Virus record (IMG/VR): IMGVR_UViG_3300042445_000177
Location: 1-34,821 of that record
DNA: 34,821 nt
Origin: a virus
Direction: 5' to 3' (one strand)
In this document: positions 7,546-23,676 of the stretch, piece after piece
How the letters are laid out: the number at the start of each line of letters is the position of its first letter
How positions within the stretch are numbered: position 1 is the stretch's first letter
Position numbers and translations under genes: made by a program
The notes under the pieces: model-generated
What the model was told of the DNA's origin: nothing
Database searches by the model: none
Seen by the model: the letters and a program-made list of their open reading frames with translations, nothing else

Positions 7546-8418
7546 ATGAGCGCACTAATATATCAGCAAGTAACCGACCAAATCATTAAGCAATTAGAAG
7601 CCGGCGCTACGCCTTGGGTTAAGCAATGGAATGGCAGCAGCAGCGCCAACCATAACGCCGTAAGCGGTAAAACGTATCAAGGTATCAATACTCTCATTCT
7701 CGCCATGAGCGCCGCCGCTGGCGGGTTCAAATCCAACCAGTGGGCAACGTATAAACAATGGTTAGAATTAGGCGGACAAGTACGAAAAGGCACTAAGGGC
7801 ACTACTATTATTTTTTATTCACCGGTGACTGGCAGCAAAATCACTGCCGACGGCGTAGAGAAAAGCTATCATTACGTCCTAAAATCGTATAGCGTTTTTA
7901 ATGCCGACCAAATCGATGGCTATACGCCGCCGGTAGTAACGGTTAAACCGTTTAACAGCATTGCAGCATTAGAGGCATTGGCGACTGATAGCGGCGCTAT
8001 AATTAAGCACGGCGGCGATAAGGCGTTTTATTCGCCACGCAATGATTTTATCCAAATGCCAAATAAAACCGACTTTACTAATGAAGCGGCATATTATGCG
8101 ACTTTATTACATGAGATGGCGCACTGGTCCGGCGCTTCTAACCGTTTGGACCGGGACTTATCGGGACGTTTTGGTAATGAAGCCTACGCCGCCGAGGAAT
8201 TGATAGCGGAATTGTCGGCAGCATTTTTATGCGCTGAATATCAAATTGACGGCGACTTACGCCACGCCGGATACATTGCTTCATGGTTGCGTATTCTTAA
8301 GAATGACAATAAGGCAGTATTTAAGGCAGCAGCATTAGCGCAAAAATCAGCGGATTACATTAAGGCATTGTCTGCCACTGCAGTGGAGGCAGTATCGGAG
8401 GAATTGATAGCGGCATAA
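7546..8418 (+). CDS. ardC: ArdC-like antirestriction protein (ssDNA-binding domain plus zincin)
   Basis: This is a 290-residue protein. The N-terminal half (about 1-130) is the ArdC N-terminal type, with YQQVTDQIIKQLEAGATPWVKQW, QGINTL and LELGGQVRKGTKGT. The C-terminal half is a zinc metallopeptidase-like domain with HEMAH (H189, E190, H193) and a downstream acidic helix EELIAEL (217-223) that may give the third ligand. ArdC proteins are known from plasmids and phages to protect incoming DNA from restriction; the role here is inferred from the family. It is the first gene of the rightward arm, consistent with very early expression. Its bases are rich in GCCG/CGGC words, unlike the structural genes, which suggests later acquisition. 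Confidence 0.85.
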   Translation: MSALIYQQVTDQIIKQLEAGATPWVKQWNGSSSANHNAVSGKTYQGINTLILAMSAAAGGFKSNQWATYKQWLELGGQVRKGTKGTTIIFYSPVTGSKITADGVEKSYHYVLKSYSVFNADQIDGYTPPVVTVKPFNSIAALEALATDSGAIIKHGGDKAFYSPRNDFIQMPNKTDFTNEAAYYATLLHEMAHWSGASNRLDRDLSGRFGNEAYAAEELIAELSAAFLCAEYQIDGDLRHAGYIASWLRILKNDNKAVFKAAALAQKSADYIKALSATAVEAVSEELIAA

Positions 8419-8506: not shown

Positions 8507-9154
8507 ATGATACGATTATCAAAAACCAGTAAACTAGATGGCATTCTCTCATGGTCACTACAGGCGCTTGAGACTTGCCCGGGCAGCATTGCAAAAAATG
8601 GCGACTTAGTACCGGCGTGCAAGGGCTGCTATGCAACAACGGGTAATTACAATTATCCTAACGTGAAAGCGCCACGCCTTGAAAACCGGGATGACTGGCA
8701 GCGCACTGAATGGGTTAGTGAGATGGTATCGGCACTGGGTAATTCCCGGTATTTTCGCTGGTTCGATAGCGGCGACTTATACAGCGCCGACTTAGCGGCT
8801 AAAGTTTACGCCGTGATGGTTGCCACGCCATGGGTTAGTCACTGGTTGCCGACTAGAATGCACAAGTTTAAAAAGTTTACTAATATATTGCATAAAATGC
8901 AGTCACTGCCTAACGTCGCCGTGCGTTATTCTAGCGATAGCATTACCGGCGAAACCGTGCAGGGCTCTACTACGTCCACAATTTTTAGCAGTGAAGCACA
9001 ATTACCGGATAACGCCACGGTATGCCGTGCTTATGAGAATGAAGGAAAATGCAGCGGCTGCCGCGCGTGCTATGATAAAAACGTGGCAGTCATCGCCTAT
9101 AAAGCGCACGGGGTTAAAATGGCGAAAGTAATCCGCATTGCAGCAATGGCTTAA
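8507..9154 (+). CDS. Gp88-family Cys-rich protein
   Basis: The product is 215 residues, recognised as the phage Gp88 family (named after a mycobacteriophage product of unknown function). Two cysteine groups are seen: C24...C38-x2-C41-Y near the N terminus, and C173...C182-x2-C185-x2-C188 near the C terminus, suggesting iron-sulphur or zinc binding. Conserved-looking aromatic and acidic motifs lie between them (FRWFDSGDLYS at 83-93, HWLPTR at 112-117). It has the same leader as ardC and the same GCCG-rich base use, so the two genes probably moved and are controlled together. The activity is unknown; a redox or nucleic-acid-modifying enzyme and an anti-defence factor are both possible. Confidence 0.75.
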   Translation: MIRLSKTSKLDGILSWSLQALETCPGSIAKNGDLVPACKGCYATTGNYNYPNVKAPRLENRDDWQRTEWVSEMVSALGNSRYFRWFDSGDLYSADLAAKVYAVMVATPWVSHWLPTRMHKFKKFTNILHKMQSLPNVAVRYSSDSITGETVQGSTTSTIFSSEAQLPDNATVCRAYENEGKCSGCRACYDKNVAVIAYKAHGVKMAKVIRIAAMA

Positions 9155-9181: not shown

Positions 9182-9361
9182 ATGTATAAAATTATCGACG
9201 TATACGGTTGCGCTTATAAAAACACTATGACATTCGACGAAGCAATAAAAACATTACAGGCGGATATGTACTTATCCGACAATGATATAGCGGCGGCAAA
9301 AAATGCGGATAAATTTTCTTTTATCTACGGTTTTAAATCATGTCATATTGAAAGGGTTTAA
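9182..9361 (+). CDS. Hypothetical 59-residue protein
   Basis: ATG at 9182 follows an AGAGG ribosome site and opens a 59-codon frame beginning MYKIIDVYGCAY. It is a small, mixed alpha/beta-looking protein with two cysteines (C10, C54) and no membrane segment. It lies between gp88 and another small gene with 2-bp spacing to the next start, in a tight row of small genes. No family is recognised. Ribosome site, spacing and lack of alternative frames support it as a real gene. Confidence 0.6.
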   Translation: MYKIIDVYGCAYKNTMTFDEAIKTLQADMYLSDNDIAAAKNADKFSFIYGFKSCHIERV

Positions 9362-9363
9362 TT

Positions 9364-9456
9364 ATGTTTAAAATTTTTGCAGTAGCGGTAAACATTGTTT
9401 TATTTGGTATCTTATCTATTGGCTTCGGTTATCTTATCGCCGAAGCACTAACTTAA
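9364..9456 (+). CDS. 30-residue single-pass membrane peptide
   Basis: ATG at 9364 is preceded by GAAAGGG at a good distance. The product is about 30 residues and nearly all one hydrophobic helix (FAVAVNIVLFGILSIGFGYL), with one Lys before it and a Glu after. It probably inserts in the inner membrane. Early phage membrane peptides of this size can act on host membrane proteins or in superinfection exclusion, but no function can be assigned here. Confidence 0.55.
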   Translation: MFKIFAVAVNIVLFGILSIGFGYLIAEALT

Positions 9457-9471
9457 AAAGGAATTACAAAA

Positions 9472-9768
9472 ATGAGTACACTATACGAAATTAAGAATAT
9501 CGACTTTCCTAAAAACAAGCCTAGCAAGGCGGCAGTATTGAAGGCAGTTAAGGCAGCCATAAAGCAAGGATATAAAGCAATAACCGTATCATGGGGCGAA
9601 AACTCTATTGACTTGAATATAAACCCGCATAGCAGCGCCGGAGACTGGTACGGCTATGGTTGGATTAGGGATATATCAGGCGACGATATTGCTAAGGGTT
9701 TAAGCGATACTAAAACCACTCAATTTATGAGGCAGCATTTTAACTTACTAGGGGAGGCGCTTAAATGA
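9472..9768 (+). CDS. Hypothetical 98-residue early protein
   Basis: This is a 98-residue protein. An N-terminal Lys/Ala-rich helix (KAAVLKAVKAAIKQG) is followed by beta-like segments (AITVSWGENSIDLNINP) and an aromatic Gly-rich stretch WYGYGWIRD around residues 61-69. AAAGGA precedes the ATG. Its stop overlaps the next start (ATGA). No known domain is recognised. The helix-plus-strand layout is compatible with a small nucleic-acid or protein-binding fold. Its position in the row of small genes behind ardC/gp88 suggests a host-takeover or anti-defence role, which is inference. Confidence 0.65.
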   Translation: MSTLYEIKNIDFPKNKPSKAAVLKAVKAAIKQGYKAITVSWGENSIDLNINPHSSAGDWYGYGWIRDISGDDIAKGLSDTKTTQFMRQHFNLLGEALK

Positions 9769-9956
9769 AAACTAATCAAGACTGGCTAGAATTAGCCTAT
9801 ACCGTAGATTTACTTAGTCGGATGACTGAATCAATAGAAACCTATTTGGATGATGATAGATGGGACGGTATAGCGGCTTTACACGCTGAAATTAAAGAAT
9901 CAAATAAACTTATCAAAAAGTACTATAAACGAGTGAATCAGGGGGTTACACAATGA
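9765..9956 (+). CDS. Hypothetical 63-residue helical protein
   Basis: The product is 63 residues, mostly helical, with alternating acidic and basic residues (TESIETYLDDDRW, EIKESNKLIKKYYKRV). It starts inside the previous stop (ATGA) and its own stop overlaps the next start the same way, so three genes are translationally coupled. A GGGGAGG ribosome site lies just upstream. No family is recognised. Confidence 0.6.
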   Translation: MKTNQDWLELAYTVDLLSRMTESIETYLDDDRWDGIAALHAEIKESNKLIKKYYKRVNQGVTQ

Positions 9957-10156
9957 AATTATATCGAGTGATTGCAAAACGTACATTATATGAGGAATTA
10001 TATATCGAAGCGGATAGTGAATCGAACGCTATCGCTTTAATCACAACGGGGGATGAGGAATACGACTGGAAGGATTTGCCTGAATTAGACTGGCAAATTG
10101 ATAGCGTTGAATTTCAAACAGAAGCAAAATATTCAAGCGAGGGTATAACACAATGA
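9953..10156 (+). CDS. Hypothetical 67-residue protein
   Basis: The protein has 67 residues, beginning MKLYRVIAKRTLYEELYIEA, a beta-strand-rich start followed by an acidic middle (GDEEYDWKDLPELDW). The pattern of a short basic strand pair, then xSESNAI, then a DWKDLPE-type segment is seen in many small phage proteins of unknown role. A GGGGG ribosome site precedes it, and it is coupled by ATGA overlaps on both sides. Confidence 0.62.
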   Translation: MKLYRVIAKRTLYEELYIEADSESNAIALITTGDEEYDWKDLPELDWQIDSVEFQTEAKYSSEGITQ

Positions 10157-10308
10157 AAACGAATAGGCAATATTTAACGGAAGACATAAAAGCAATGTTG
10201 CCAACATCACAGGCGGATTTTCCGTGGCTTATGCTGTTAAGTGAGGAAGGCTTGTATCACTTATGGATGGATTTAAGAAACCTAACAATGAAGGAAACAA
10301 CAGAATGA
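10153..10308 (+). CDS. Hypothetical 51-residue protein
   Basis: ATG at 10153 overlaps the previous stop. The frame encodes 51 residues (MKTNRQYLTEDIKAML... ending KETTE) and stops at 10308, overlapping the start of the next gene. The product is acidic and amphipathic with two Trp and no membrane segment. The row of four coupled ATGA junctions supports it. No relatives are recognised. Confidence 0.55.
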   Translation: MKTNRQYLTEDIKAMLPTSQADFPWLMLLSEEGLYHLWMDLRNLTMKETTE

Positions 10309-10454
10309 AAACACTATTAACCATATTGTCTGTAATGGTATTACTTACTGGCAATGCTATGGCAGGATGTAAACCAATTACAATCATTGCGCCCGACGGC
10401 ACTATGACCGTGTGTAGCGTGTGTAGCGATGGGAAAGTGATTATATGCACCTAA
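10305..10454 (+). CDS. Secreted 49-residue four-Cys microprotein
   Basis: ATG at 10305 is chosen over an in-frame ATG at 10263 because it overlaps the previous stop (ATGA), has an AAGGA site upstream and opens a classic signal peptide. The signal peptide is MK, then a hydrophobic core TLLTILSVMVLLTG, then N-A-M-A with probable cleavage after residue 20. The mature part is only 29 residues and holds four cysteines (C22, C37, C40, C48), including CSVC. It would be exported to the periplasm and folded by disulphides. Alternatively it could be a lipoprotein-like or membrane-anchored factor, though the cysteine is at +2, not +1. The function is unknown. Confidence 0.6.
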   Translation: MKTLLTILSVMVLLTGNAMAGCKPITIIAPDGTMTVCSVCSDGKVIICT

Positions 10455-10537
10455 ACACTATCCTATTCGTACTTACTGGCTTTTTAGTCTATACTCAATC
10501 CCTATTATGGTTGTTTGACTACATTGCAGGGCTTTAG
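10445..10537 (+). CDS. 30-residue membrane peptide
   Basis: The frame from ATG at 10445 overlaps the end of the secreted microprotein gene by 10 bp. It encodes about 30 residues with one hydrophobic segment (ILFVLTGFLVY...LLWLF) ending near a Tyr/Asp cap. It resembles the membrane peptide at 9364-9456 in size. There is no strong ribosome site, so coupling to the upstream gene would be needed. It is plausible but weaker than its neighbours. Confidence 0.42.
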   Translation: MHLNTILFVLTGFLVYTQSLLWLFDYIAGL

Positions 10538-10828: not shown

Positions 10829-11080
10829 ATGAGATGCCAATGTTGCAACACAGCATTAAATGATTTTGAATCAACTATGCGCCATGCCATTACTAGGGAT
10901 TTTTTGGAGATGTGTGGGACTTGTTTGCGTACCGTTGATGCCTATATCCCAGTACAGGTCAGGAATGACCTATTGAGCGATTCAGATACGGGTAATCTTG
11001 AATCATTGCTGGACAATATAGACGATTTTACTGGTGACGATTGCGATGAAGACCTTGATGAATATTGGAATGAGCGCTAA
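10829..11080 (+). CDS. Small zinc-finger-like protein
   Basis: ATG at 10829 is chosen because AAGGG (10817-10821) is at the right distance; a TTG at 10823 is too close. The 83-residue product has C-x2-C at the N terminus (RCQCCNTAL) and a second C-x2-C in FLEMCGTCL, a likely zinc site. An acidic tail (NIDDFTGDDCDEDLDEYW) follows. Similar short Cys-finger proteins occur widely in T7-like and aquatic podoviruses, often near early genes. A role in binding a host protein or nucleic acid is inferred. Confidence 0.7.
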   Translation: MRCQCCNTALNDFESTMRHAITRDFLEMCGTCLRTVDAYIPVQVRNDLLSDSDTGNLESLLDNIDDFTGDDCDEDLDEYWNER

Positions 11081-11154: not shown

Positions 11155-11221
11155 TCTATGTTGTTAAAGCATTATACGAAGTTTTTGAAATTGTGTCAAG
11201 TCTTTTATTTTTGTCTTAAAC

Positions 11222-11244
11222 CATTGACTTTTGGATTGTCAATG
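11222..11244. promoter_or_regulatory. Dyad over a -35-like box (operator candidate)
   Basis: CATTGAC (11222-11228) and GTCAATG (11238-11244) form a perfect 7-bp inverted repeat with a 9-base centre. It lies 36 bp before the first replication-block gene. A TTGACT box forms part of the left arm. The downstream -10 (TACTGT) is poor, so the site could need an activator. Confidence 0.45.
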
Positions 11245-11279
11245 ATTACTGTAAGTTGTCTTTAATTGAAAGGGTTTTT

Positions 11280-11432: not shown

Positions 11433-11610
11433 TCTTCGGTACGAAGTAAGAGATGAATGGGGCGGGTTAGTAAGGCGGTTTTATACCCGTGATGAAGCAG
11501 AGCAGTATATTGAAATGGATAAATCGCTATGGATAAAGACATTACCGAAGCCAACAAAGATAGATGGCTTTACAGAGGCTTTAAAACGCCTTGGGAGCTG
11601 TTTGTTTTAG
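11425..11610 (+). CDS. Hypothetical 61-residue protein
   Basis: This is a 61-residue protein with RYEVRDEWGGLVRRFYTRDEAEQYI, followed by Lys/Pro-rich WIKTLPKPTKI and a last helix. The segment VRDEWGGLVRRF-TRDEAEQYI is a small beta-hairpin-helix pattern that I recognise from many small phage proteins. Its last 27 codons overlap the next gene (11529) in another frame. Both frames look genuine, because the C-terminal LPKP...EALKRLG pattern also looks conserved. Confidence 0.65.
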   Translation: MSNLRYEVRDEWGGLVRRFYTRDEAEQYIEMDKSLWIKTLPKPTKIDGFTEALKRLGSCLF

Positions 11611-11822
11611 TGGTGCTAGGGGTAGCCCTTATCTCGGCTTACGGGGGCTACAAAGCCGCTAAATGGGAACTAGAGCATACCGTATGCGGCAGTTATCAAA
11701 AAGGTCATTCCGATTGGCATGGCTGGTTAAGTGTTAAAGATGGTATTTCGAGATGTTTTTATGTAGAATCAGCATACCCTTGGCGGGTTCGTCATGGGGT
11801 TATTTTAGTGAATGGAGAATGA
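11529..11822 (+). CDS. Small membrane protein, overlapping start
   Basis: The product is 97 residues with one clear membrane segment (WELFVLVVLGVALISAYGG, about 23-41), a cytoplasmic Lys/Arg-rich N terminus and a soluble C-terminal part with two cysteines (C53, C76) and several Trp. The start ATG lies 82 bp inside the previous gene. A later GTG would cut into the membrane segment, so the ATG is preferred. Function is unknown. Confidence 0.58.
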   Translation: MDKDITEANKDRWLYRGFKTPWELFVLVVLGVALISAYGGYKAAKWELEHTVCGSYQKGHSDWHGWLSVKDGISRCFYVESAYPWRVRHGVILVNGE

Positions 11823-23241: not shown

Positions 23242-23676
23242 TTACTTGAATGGGCGAGTGCCTTGACGGTCGATTGTAAGTGCTTGTCTACGAGGTGGTC
23301 TAGCAGGGCTATCAGGAACGCTTATATGAGTCCATGAGCCAAATTCTTCAATGATTTGGTCATACCCTATGTTGGCTGCAATGCAAGCCTCTACGACCTC
23401 TCTAGGGGTCATGCCGGGGACTCTAATATCTGCTGCACAACCGATACGGTGTTGGCTAGTATCTCGTGAGCCTACAGCATCGTTCACTGCTTTAGAGCGA
23501 AAGGCAGAGTTGACGATAATCGGCTTGTTGATTAGCTTTCTAACTTGCTCTAAGAGTCCTGCAGTACGCACTAGATTGGCTATCTCGGTAGCGTTAGGGG
23601 TGTTATCTAACCCTTTACGCTGACCAATCTCCGATACAGTCATTTCCTGTAAGGAGAAGTTCTCAGTTAATTTCAC
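23242..23676 (-). CDS. Endolysin, M15-type D-Ala-D-Ala peptidase
   Basis: GTG at 23676 is the start and overlaps the holin stop (GTGA). The 144-residue product has the M15 zinc site: H76 and D83 in SQHRIGCAAD, and H117 in SWTHISV, with the substrate-binding SAFRSKAVN ahead. It cleaves peptide cross-links in peptidoglycan to release progeny. No signal peptide or membrane anchor is present, so release through a holin is expected. The C-terminal tail is basic (RPPRRQALTIDRQG). It is the last gene of the leftward arm, immediately after the holin. Confidence 0.9.
   Translation of the reverse strand: MKLTENFSLQEMTVSEIGQRKGLDNTPNATEIANLVRTAGLLEQVRKLINKPIIVNSAFRSKAVNDAVGSRDTSQHRIGCAADIRVPGMTPREVVEACIAANIGYDQIIEEFGSWTHISVPDSPARPPRRQALTIDRQGTRPFK

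Follow-up and report, generated by a model that had tools for sequence, protein, structure and literature searches.

A predicted exported four-cysteine peptide from the replication gene clusters of uncultured phages

What is encoded by a row of short, closely packed genes in the genome of an uncultured phage, and might any of the products act in the envelope of the host cell? The question was raised by positions 9182–10537 of IMG/VR record IMGVR_UViG_3300042445_000177 (34,821 nucleotides, analysed at its full length and referred to as the window). The source of the window is an aquatic bacteriophage, and among named phages those of Pelagibacter come nearest by primase-helicase (about 51–52 %). 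The original prediction, made from the DNA letters alone, described eight tiny genes following ardC/gp88, several of them joined by ATGA overlaps. Two were said to encode 30-residue membrane peptides and one a secreted four-cysteine peptide that may block superinfection or a periplasmic host factor.

The row of small genes and its coding evidence

The row is on the + strand and follows the genes for an ArdC-type antirestriction protein (7546–8418; PF08401 and PF18818) and a GP88 family protein (8507–9154; PF17338), both in the same orientation. The ORF listing contained eight small ORFs between gp88 and position 10537, of 59, 30, 98, 63, 67, 51, 49 and 30 aa in order, and the count of eight therefore stands, although the 98-aa product is small rather than tiny. 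The first four encode a 59-aa protein (9182–9361), a 30-residue membrane peptide (MFKIFAVAVNIVLFGILSIGFGYLIAEALT; 9364–9456), the 98-aa protein (9472–9768), with relatives close to gp88 at 34 loci from many phages, and a 63-aa protein (9765–9956). They are followed by genes for a 67-aa protein that is variable among relatives (9953–10156), a soluble 51-aa protein (10153–10308), the four-cysteine peptide (10305–10454) and a second 30-residue membrane peptide (MHLNTILFVLTGFLVYTQSLLWLFDYIAGL; 10445–10537). ATGA overlaps at 9765, 9953, 10153 and 10305 join the third through the seventh gene, confirming the proposed coupling, and the seventh and eighth genes share a 10-nt overlap (10445–10454). Relatives of the 51-aa protein, encoded upstream of the four-cysteine peptide, were found in 17 loci at 33–45 % identity, and L001, L002 and L084 have a longer form. 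The window gave no match in Rfam or tRNA searches.

The mechanical ORF list places the start of the four-cysteine peptide gene at 10263, which would give a product of 63 aa. This reading was rejected because the window-type homologues share a start codon equivalent to 10305 that is preceded by a purine-rich stretch, and the product is therefore taken to be 49 aa long.

Selective constraint was assessed by dN/dS. For the four-cysteine peptide gene (10 distinct close relatives, window included) the value was 0.076 over the mature part as against 0.32 over the signal part, showing that it is a real coding gene and that purifying selection is concentrated on the mature part. Values of 0.136 for the membrane ORF at 10445 (non-overlapping codons of 14 distinct sequences) and 0.22 for that at 9364 (seven distinct sequences) indicate that the two ORFs for predicted membrane peptides are coding as well. 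Reading the same DNA in either of the shifted forward frames gave 0.68 to 20. Constraint also seems to act on the 59-aa gene (0.13; three distinct sequences) and on relatives of the 51-aa gene (0.08; eight distinct sequences, the window not among them), while a value of 0.48 for the 63-aa gene was set aside as one alignment row was shifted by a codon.

Several other features lie near the row. A perfect sigma-70 consensus promoter (TTGACA-17-TATAAT; 11171–11199, − strand) faces leftward, antisense to the small-gene row, and this promoter is retained near the same gene in 14 of the 16 sequences compared, window included. Promoter-like sites overall in the region were not above chance (14 versus 16.7), and the RNA just downstream of this promoter had no unusual fold (z 0.58). 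An operator-like inverted repeat, CATTGAC-N9-GTCAATG (11219–11247), is located between the antisense promoter and the next + strand gene, and most related loci have a sequence resembling it. An 83-aa protein with C-x2-C pairs that looks zinc-ribbon-like by eye (10829–11080) is the product of the small gene with the widest distribution in the region, present in 64 of the 110 loci searched. Another small protein (11529–11822) has an N-terminal membrane segment followed by cysteine residues, and its relative in L017-type phages (L017:8975–9199) is near the peptide gene; the clusters of other members include a different membrane-anchored two-cysteine small protein (L096:3273–3479; also in L114 and L142).

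An unnamed peptide family in uncultured phages

A peptide search of 2.9 million viral contigs, performed without selection for the cysteine pattern, identified relatives of the four-cysteine peptide at 23 loci, 13 of them with four cysteines, nine with two and one cut by the contig end. Further divergent members were found beside the primase gene by tblastn on the loci fetched for gp88. When the viral collection was scanned with the motif C-x7-PDG-x4-C-x-V-C, 60 of the 86 stretches recovered were family members, versus none of six for a scrambled control (PGD for PDG). A second pattern, which does not specify the first cysteine but requires the last, recovered 62 stretches that included 45 members, and the first cysteine was present in all 45. 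As each pattern demands three of the four cysteines, the counts of members with all four are inflated in these scans. The members of each pair L081/L082, L086/L087, L001/L002 and L084/L104 nearly duplicate each other or come from one contig, and several loci in the series L180–L213 repeat contigs of the 23-locus search.

The search for homologues thus delivered a family, with 57 distinct precursors in total. An alignment (A4) was built from 56 of these, omitting the GenBank one; P30, G32, C37, V39 and C48 are invariant in it and D31 is nearly so. A member is defined by a hydrophobic signal-like segment, followed by C-x7-P-[D/N]-G-x4-C-x-V-C-x(5-7)-C and an end within 4 residues, and the window peptide has each of these features. 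Comparison of profiles related the window type to the most distant group with 98 % probability, the motif having been used in collecting that distant group. The four-cysteine peptide belongs to an unnamed family spread over many otherwise different uncultured phages. An exported disulphide peptide in such an operon had been considered unusual, but this one is not confined to a single phage.

No significant family for the peptide was found in Pfam, PHROGs or NCBIfam; phrog_31190 (function unknown) gave a weak, non-significant match to the cysteine-rich end of two members (E 0.034 and 0.43). The A4 profile, searched against all PDB chain sequences with E up to 10, retrieved four matches at chance level. 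A Foldseek search with the model of the peptide against PDB and BFVD found nothing at E ≤ 0.001, as expected for only 49 residues. The top BFVD match (probability 0.99; E 0.061, not significant; 33 % identity over 49 columns) is A0A6J7VK77, an uncharacterised protein of 46 aa from an uncultured phage, and is probably a family member. The open-licence papers searched included none on such a peptide.

When five precursors were compared by tblastn with 50,697 GenBank phage records, the only plausible members were in four near-identical Manatee Spring podovirus records (E 0.6 with the window query). In the two of these records that were examined, MW202742 (L112:3935–4117) and MW202572 (L227:1501–1680), the peptide ORF is not annotated in its frame and is covered by out-of-frame genes in one record and by an opposite-strand gene in the other. 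The ORFs of the row are very short, and being missed in GenBank relatives is what would be expected of chance frames that are not translated. However, the dN/dS values, the shifted-frame controls and the scrambled-motif control make this explanation scarcely credible, and it was rejected on those grounds. In the genome collection, tblastn among 69 pattern stretches detected no relative, and the motif pattern recovered seven stretches with one member, L219, on a contig labelled as a Flavobacteriaceae MAG. The neighbouring genes on that contig look like those of L114-type phages, and the label is probably due to a binning error or a prophage.

Export signal, disulphides and predicted fold

The precursor has a basic start, a hydrophobic core and A-M-A, followed by GCKPITIIAPDGTMTVCSVCSDGKVIICT. 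By simple rules, residues 1–20 (MKTLLTILSVMVLLTGNAMA; 10305–10364) form a signal sequence with a predicted SPase I site between A-M-A and G, leaving a mature peptide of 29 aa (G21–T49; 10365–10451) with cysteines at 22, 37, 40 and 48. This is the arrangement that had been proposed. Signal sequences show no relation between subfamilies. In L092 and L093 the mature DNA is 71–84 % identical to that of the window type and the signal DNA 30–37 %, which indicates that signal sequences were exchanged at the cleavage boundary. Preservation of the signal and the cysteines among relatives had been named as decisive for the prediction; a signal-like segment is present in all complete relatives, though its sequence has been replaced, and all four cysteines persist throughout the close family, with two of the four left in two lineages.

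All 49 four-cysteine precursors have an SPase I type site at the first cysteine or one residue before it, assessed by the same simple rules. Export of the peptide is well supported by this pattern and cleavage is likely, while the long hydrophobic segments of some members could stay as membrane anchors. The position of the first cysteine, at the predicted cleavage point or adjacent to it, also raises the possibility of a lipoprotein resembling T5 Llp or T1 Cor, with that cysteine lipidated and the peptide anchored. A loose lipobox is present in 15 of the 49 precursors, including the window type (MAGC), but absent from the other 34 (YAGC, AFAC, VKAC and others), and lipidation as a family-wide rule was rejected for that reason. 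The first cysteine is moreover lost together with C40, which fits a disulphide partner and not a lipid site, and the two-cysteine forms retain a signal-like segment without it. The SPase I sites appear to fit better than the lipobox, and a lipoprotein is considered unlikely.

The pairing C22–C40 and C37–C48 was written down before either structural model was made. Among the 56 aligned precursors, C22 and C40 are both present in 49 and both missing from seven, and none has only one of them; C37 and C48 are present in all 56. The seven precursors fall into two lineages (L095–L103 and L105), pointing to two joint losses. AlphaFold run on A4 gave strands at 22–28, 34–40 and 45–48 (pTM 0.41; block-mean pLDDT 85, 90 and 83 over residues 21–49). 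A model of the distant group alone, with all window-type members left out, gave strands at 25–31, 37–43 and 46–49 (pTM 0.34). In both, the hairpin registers set the predicted cysteine partners opposite each other, with strand pairing read from DSSP strand limits. The paired cysteine loss in two lineages and the two models together indicate a three-stranded beta meander with disulphides C22–C40 and C37–C48, and two bridges probably hold the peptide together.

Genomic setting and candidate roles

The window-type peptide gene sits between the genes for GP88 and the primase-helicase. In L017 and its kin it comes just after the primase-helicase gene and is followed at −10 nt by a gene for a membrane protein; the single one tested is DUF6552. 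It adjoins DNA_pol_A and PDDEXK nuclease genes in L133 and YqaJ and ERF genes in L114, and is in a cluster with YqaJ and DUF3310 in L096. What stays constant across phage types is a cluster of genes for replication or recombination, a setting that speaks for early expression. L001 and L002 have a primase 96–97 % identical to that of the window, yet the four-cysteine peptide is absent from both, which suggests that it is accessory. As these two keep relatives of the 51-aa and 30-aa membrane-peptide genes, and other phages have the peptide without that membrane peptide, the row of eight is not one functional unit.

The 30-aa membrane peptide follows the four-cysteine peptide gene in all 14 window-type loci (L081–L094), as might be expected if the two overlapping genes encoded an antiholin- or spanin-like pair that sets the timing of lysis. 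An obligate pair was rejected, as each occurs without the other (the membrane peptide in L001 and L002, the four-cysteine peptide in other subfamilies). The genes are, furthermore, in the + strand replication cluster, while an M15 peptidase gene is at 23242–23676 on the − strand, and a role in lysis timing has only a small chance of being correct.

A small, cysteine-rich peptide that is exported by prediction might instead be released, as a toxin against competitors or as a cell–cell signal. Passage through the outer membrane would then be unexplained, the neighbours vary such that there is no constant partner gene for immunity or a receptor, and the genes sit in replication clusters; this role is very unlikely. 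In the arbitrium system, a short signal peptide gene (AimP) lies beside the gene for its receptor, AimR, and the mature part of the four-cysteine peptide is presumably unlike AimP.

We infer that the four-cysteine peptide binds in the envelope as an early accessory factor, and tentatively consider superinfection exclusion to be the likeliest single role, at rather less than even confidence and by analogy with known systems. The gene would be translated to a Sec-type precursor, and cleavage would leave a periplasmic peptide of 27–29 residues, predicted to be the doubly cross-linked antiparallel meander described above with the conserved P-D-G turn at the tip of its first hairpin. Made with the replication genes early in infection, the peptide would bind an envelope component and so shut out a superinfecting phage. 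The component could be a receptor or channel of the host, or the machinery by which a second phage enters. The case for exclusion draws on selection on the mature part, signal exchange, joint cysteine loss, the replication-gene neighbours and accessory status. Against it, the PDB profile search revealed no sequence relation to a known exclusion protein with a solved structure.

Small exported proteins are known tools of superinfection exclusion, with few families characterised, best known from coliphages. T4 Spackle (gp61.3) is a superinfection exclusion protein that inhibits the tail lysozyme of incoming T4. It is the product of an early gene with a cleaved signal, and a small soluble periplasmic protein with a disulphide and a mature part of 75 aa folded as an alpha-helical bundle (PMC7677548). 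The four-cysteine peptide is likewise predicted to be small, exported and disulphide-bearing and is placed early, but its mature part has 29 aa and is predicted to be all-beta with two disulphides; in the mature part neither model contains a Spackle-like alpha-helical domain, both giving three strands. The exclusion lipoproteins T5 Llp and T1 Cor are small and exported; Llp has a disulphide (Cys11–Cys58) and binds FhuA from the periplasm, and its gene adjoins that of the receptor-binding protein (PMC9586334). The four-cysteine peptide resembles them as a small exported phage protein with a predicted disulphide, but its family has no consistent lipobox and its gene is in a replication cluster, the window-type gene having GP88 and primase-helicase rather than a receptor-binding protein gene as neighbours. 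Neither Spackle nor Llp was among the four PDB matches to the A4 profile (E up to 10), and the peptide would work like either by analogy at most, without sequence relation.

The mature part is conserved in phages that differ widely, and a target common to many hosts would explain this better than a rapidly evolving one in a rival phage. The peptide might therefore take over the envelope in a way other than exclusion. It would then inhibit or redirect a conserved host machine, one for secretion, outer-membrane assembly or peptidoglycan synthesis or else a periplasmic protease, to the benefit of phage production. Phages whose replication modules differ have the P-D-G turn and C-x-V-C core in common, which would be expected if the target is present in many hosts; the genes are in early clusters and distant subfamilies match by profile. 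However, P-D-G conservation may reflect turn-making alone, and the profile match is partly built in, since members were collected with the motif. Such a takeover is possible, as a minority reading. A bolder extension, which we regard as doubtful, is that these are a widespread class of minimal phage binders, doubly stapled beta peptides of 27–29 residues with exchangeable signals that jam one conserved envelope machine of many aquatic Gram-negative hosts early and from the periplasm. Contact would be made through the tip of the P-D-G hairpin, with the neighbouring membrane peptides acting as helpers specific to each phage.

The original interpretation is upheld in part: the gene is conserved, the product is exported by signal rules, the paired cysteines fit disulphides and the place among replication or recombination genes suits an early function in the envelope, with superinfection block and a host target as candidate roles. 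A review puts the small phage genes found at more than two million, many of them with no known function (PMC11323111), so an unnamed small gene family is unsurprising by itself. The interest here is in the stapled, exported design and its spread. The family is shorter than known exclusion families, has a recognisable cysteine signature, is present in many uncultured phages and was missed in the deposited annotation examined (two GenBank records). It is also a clear test case for the many small phage proteins that lack a function. If a conserved envelope target is bound, the peptide would be a mini-binder of natural origin that can be synthesised, and would offer a way to reach that target.
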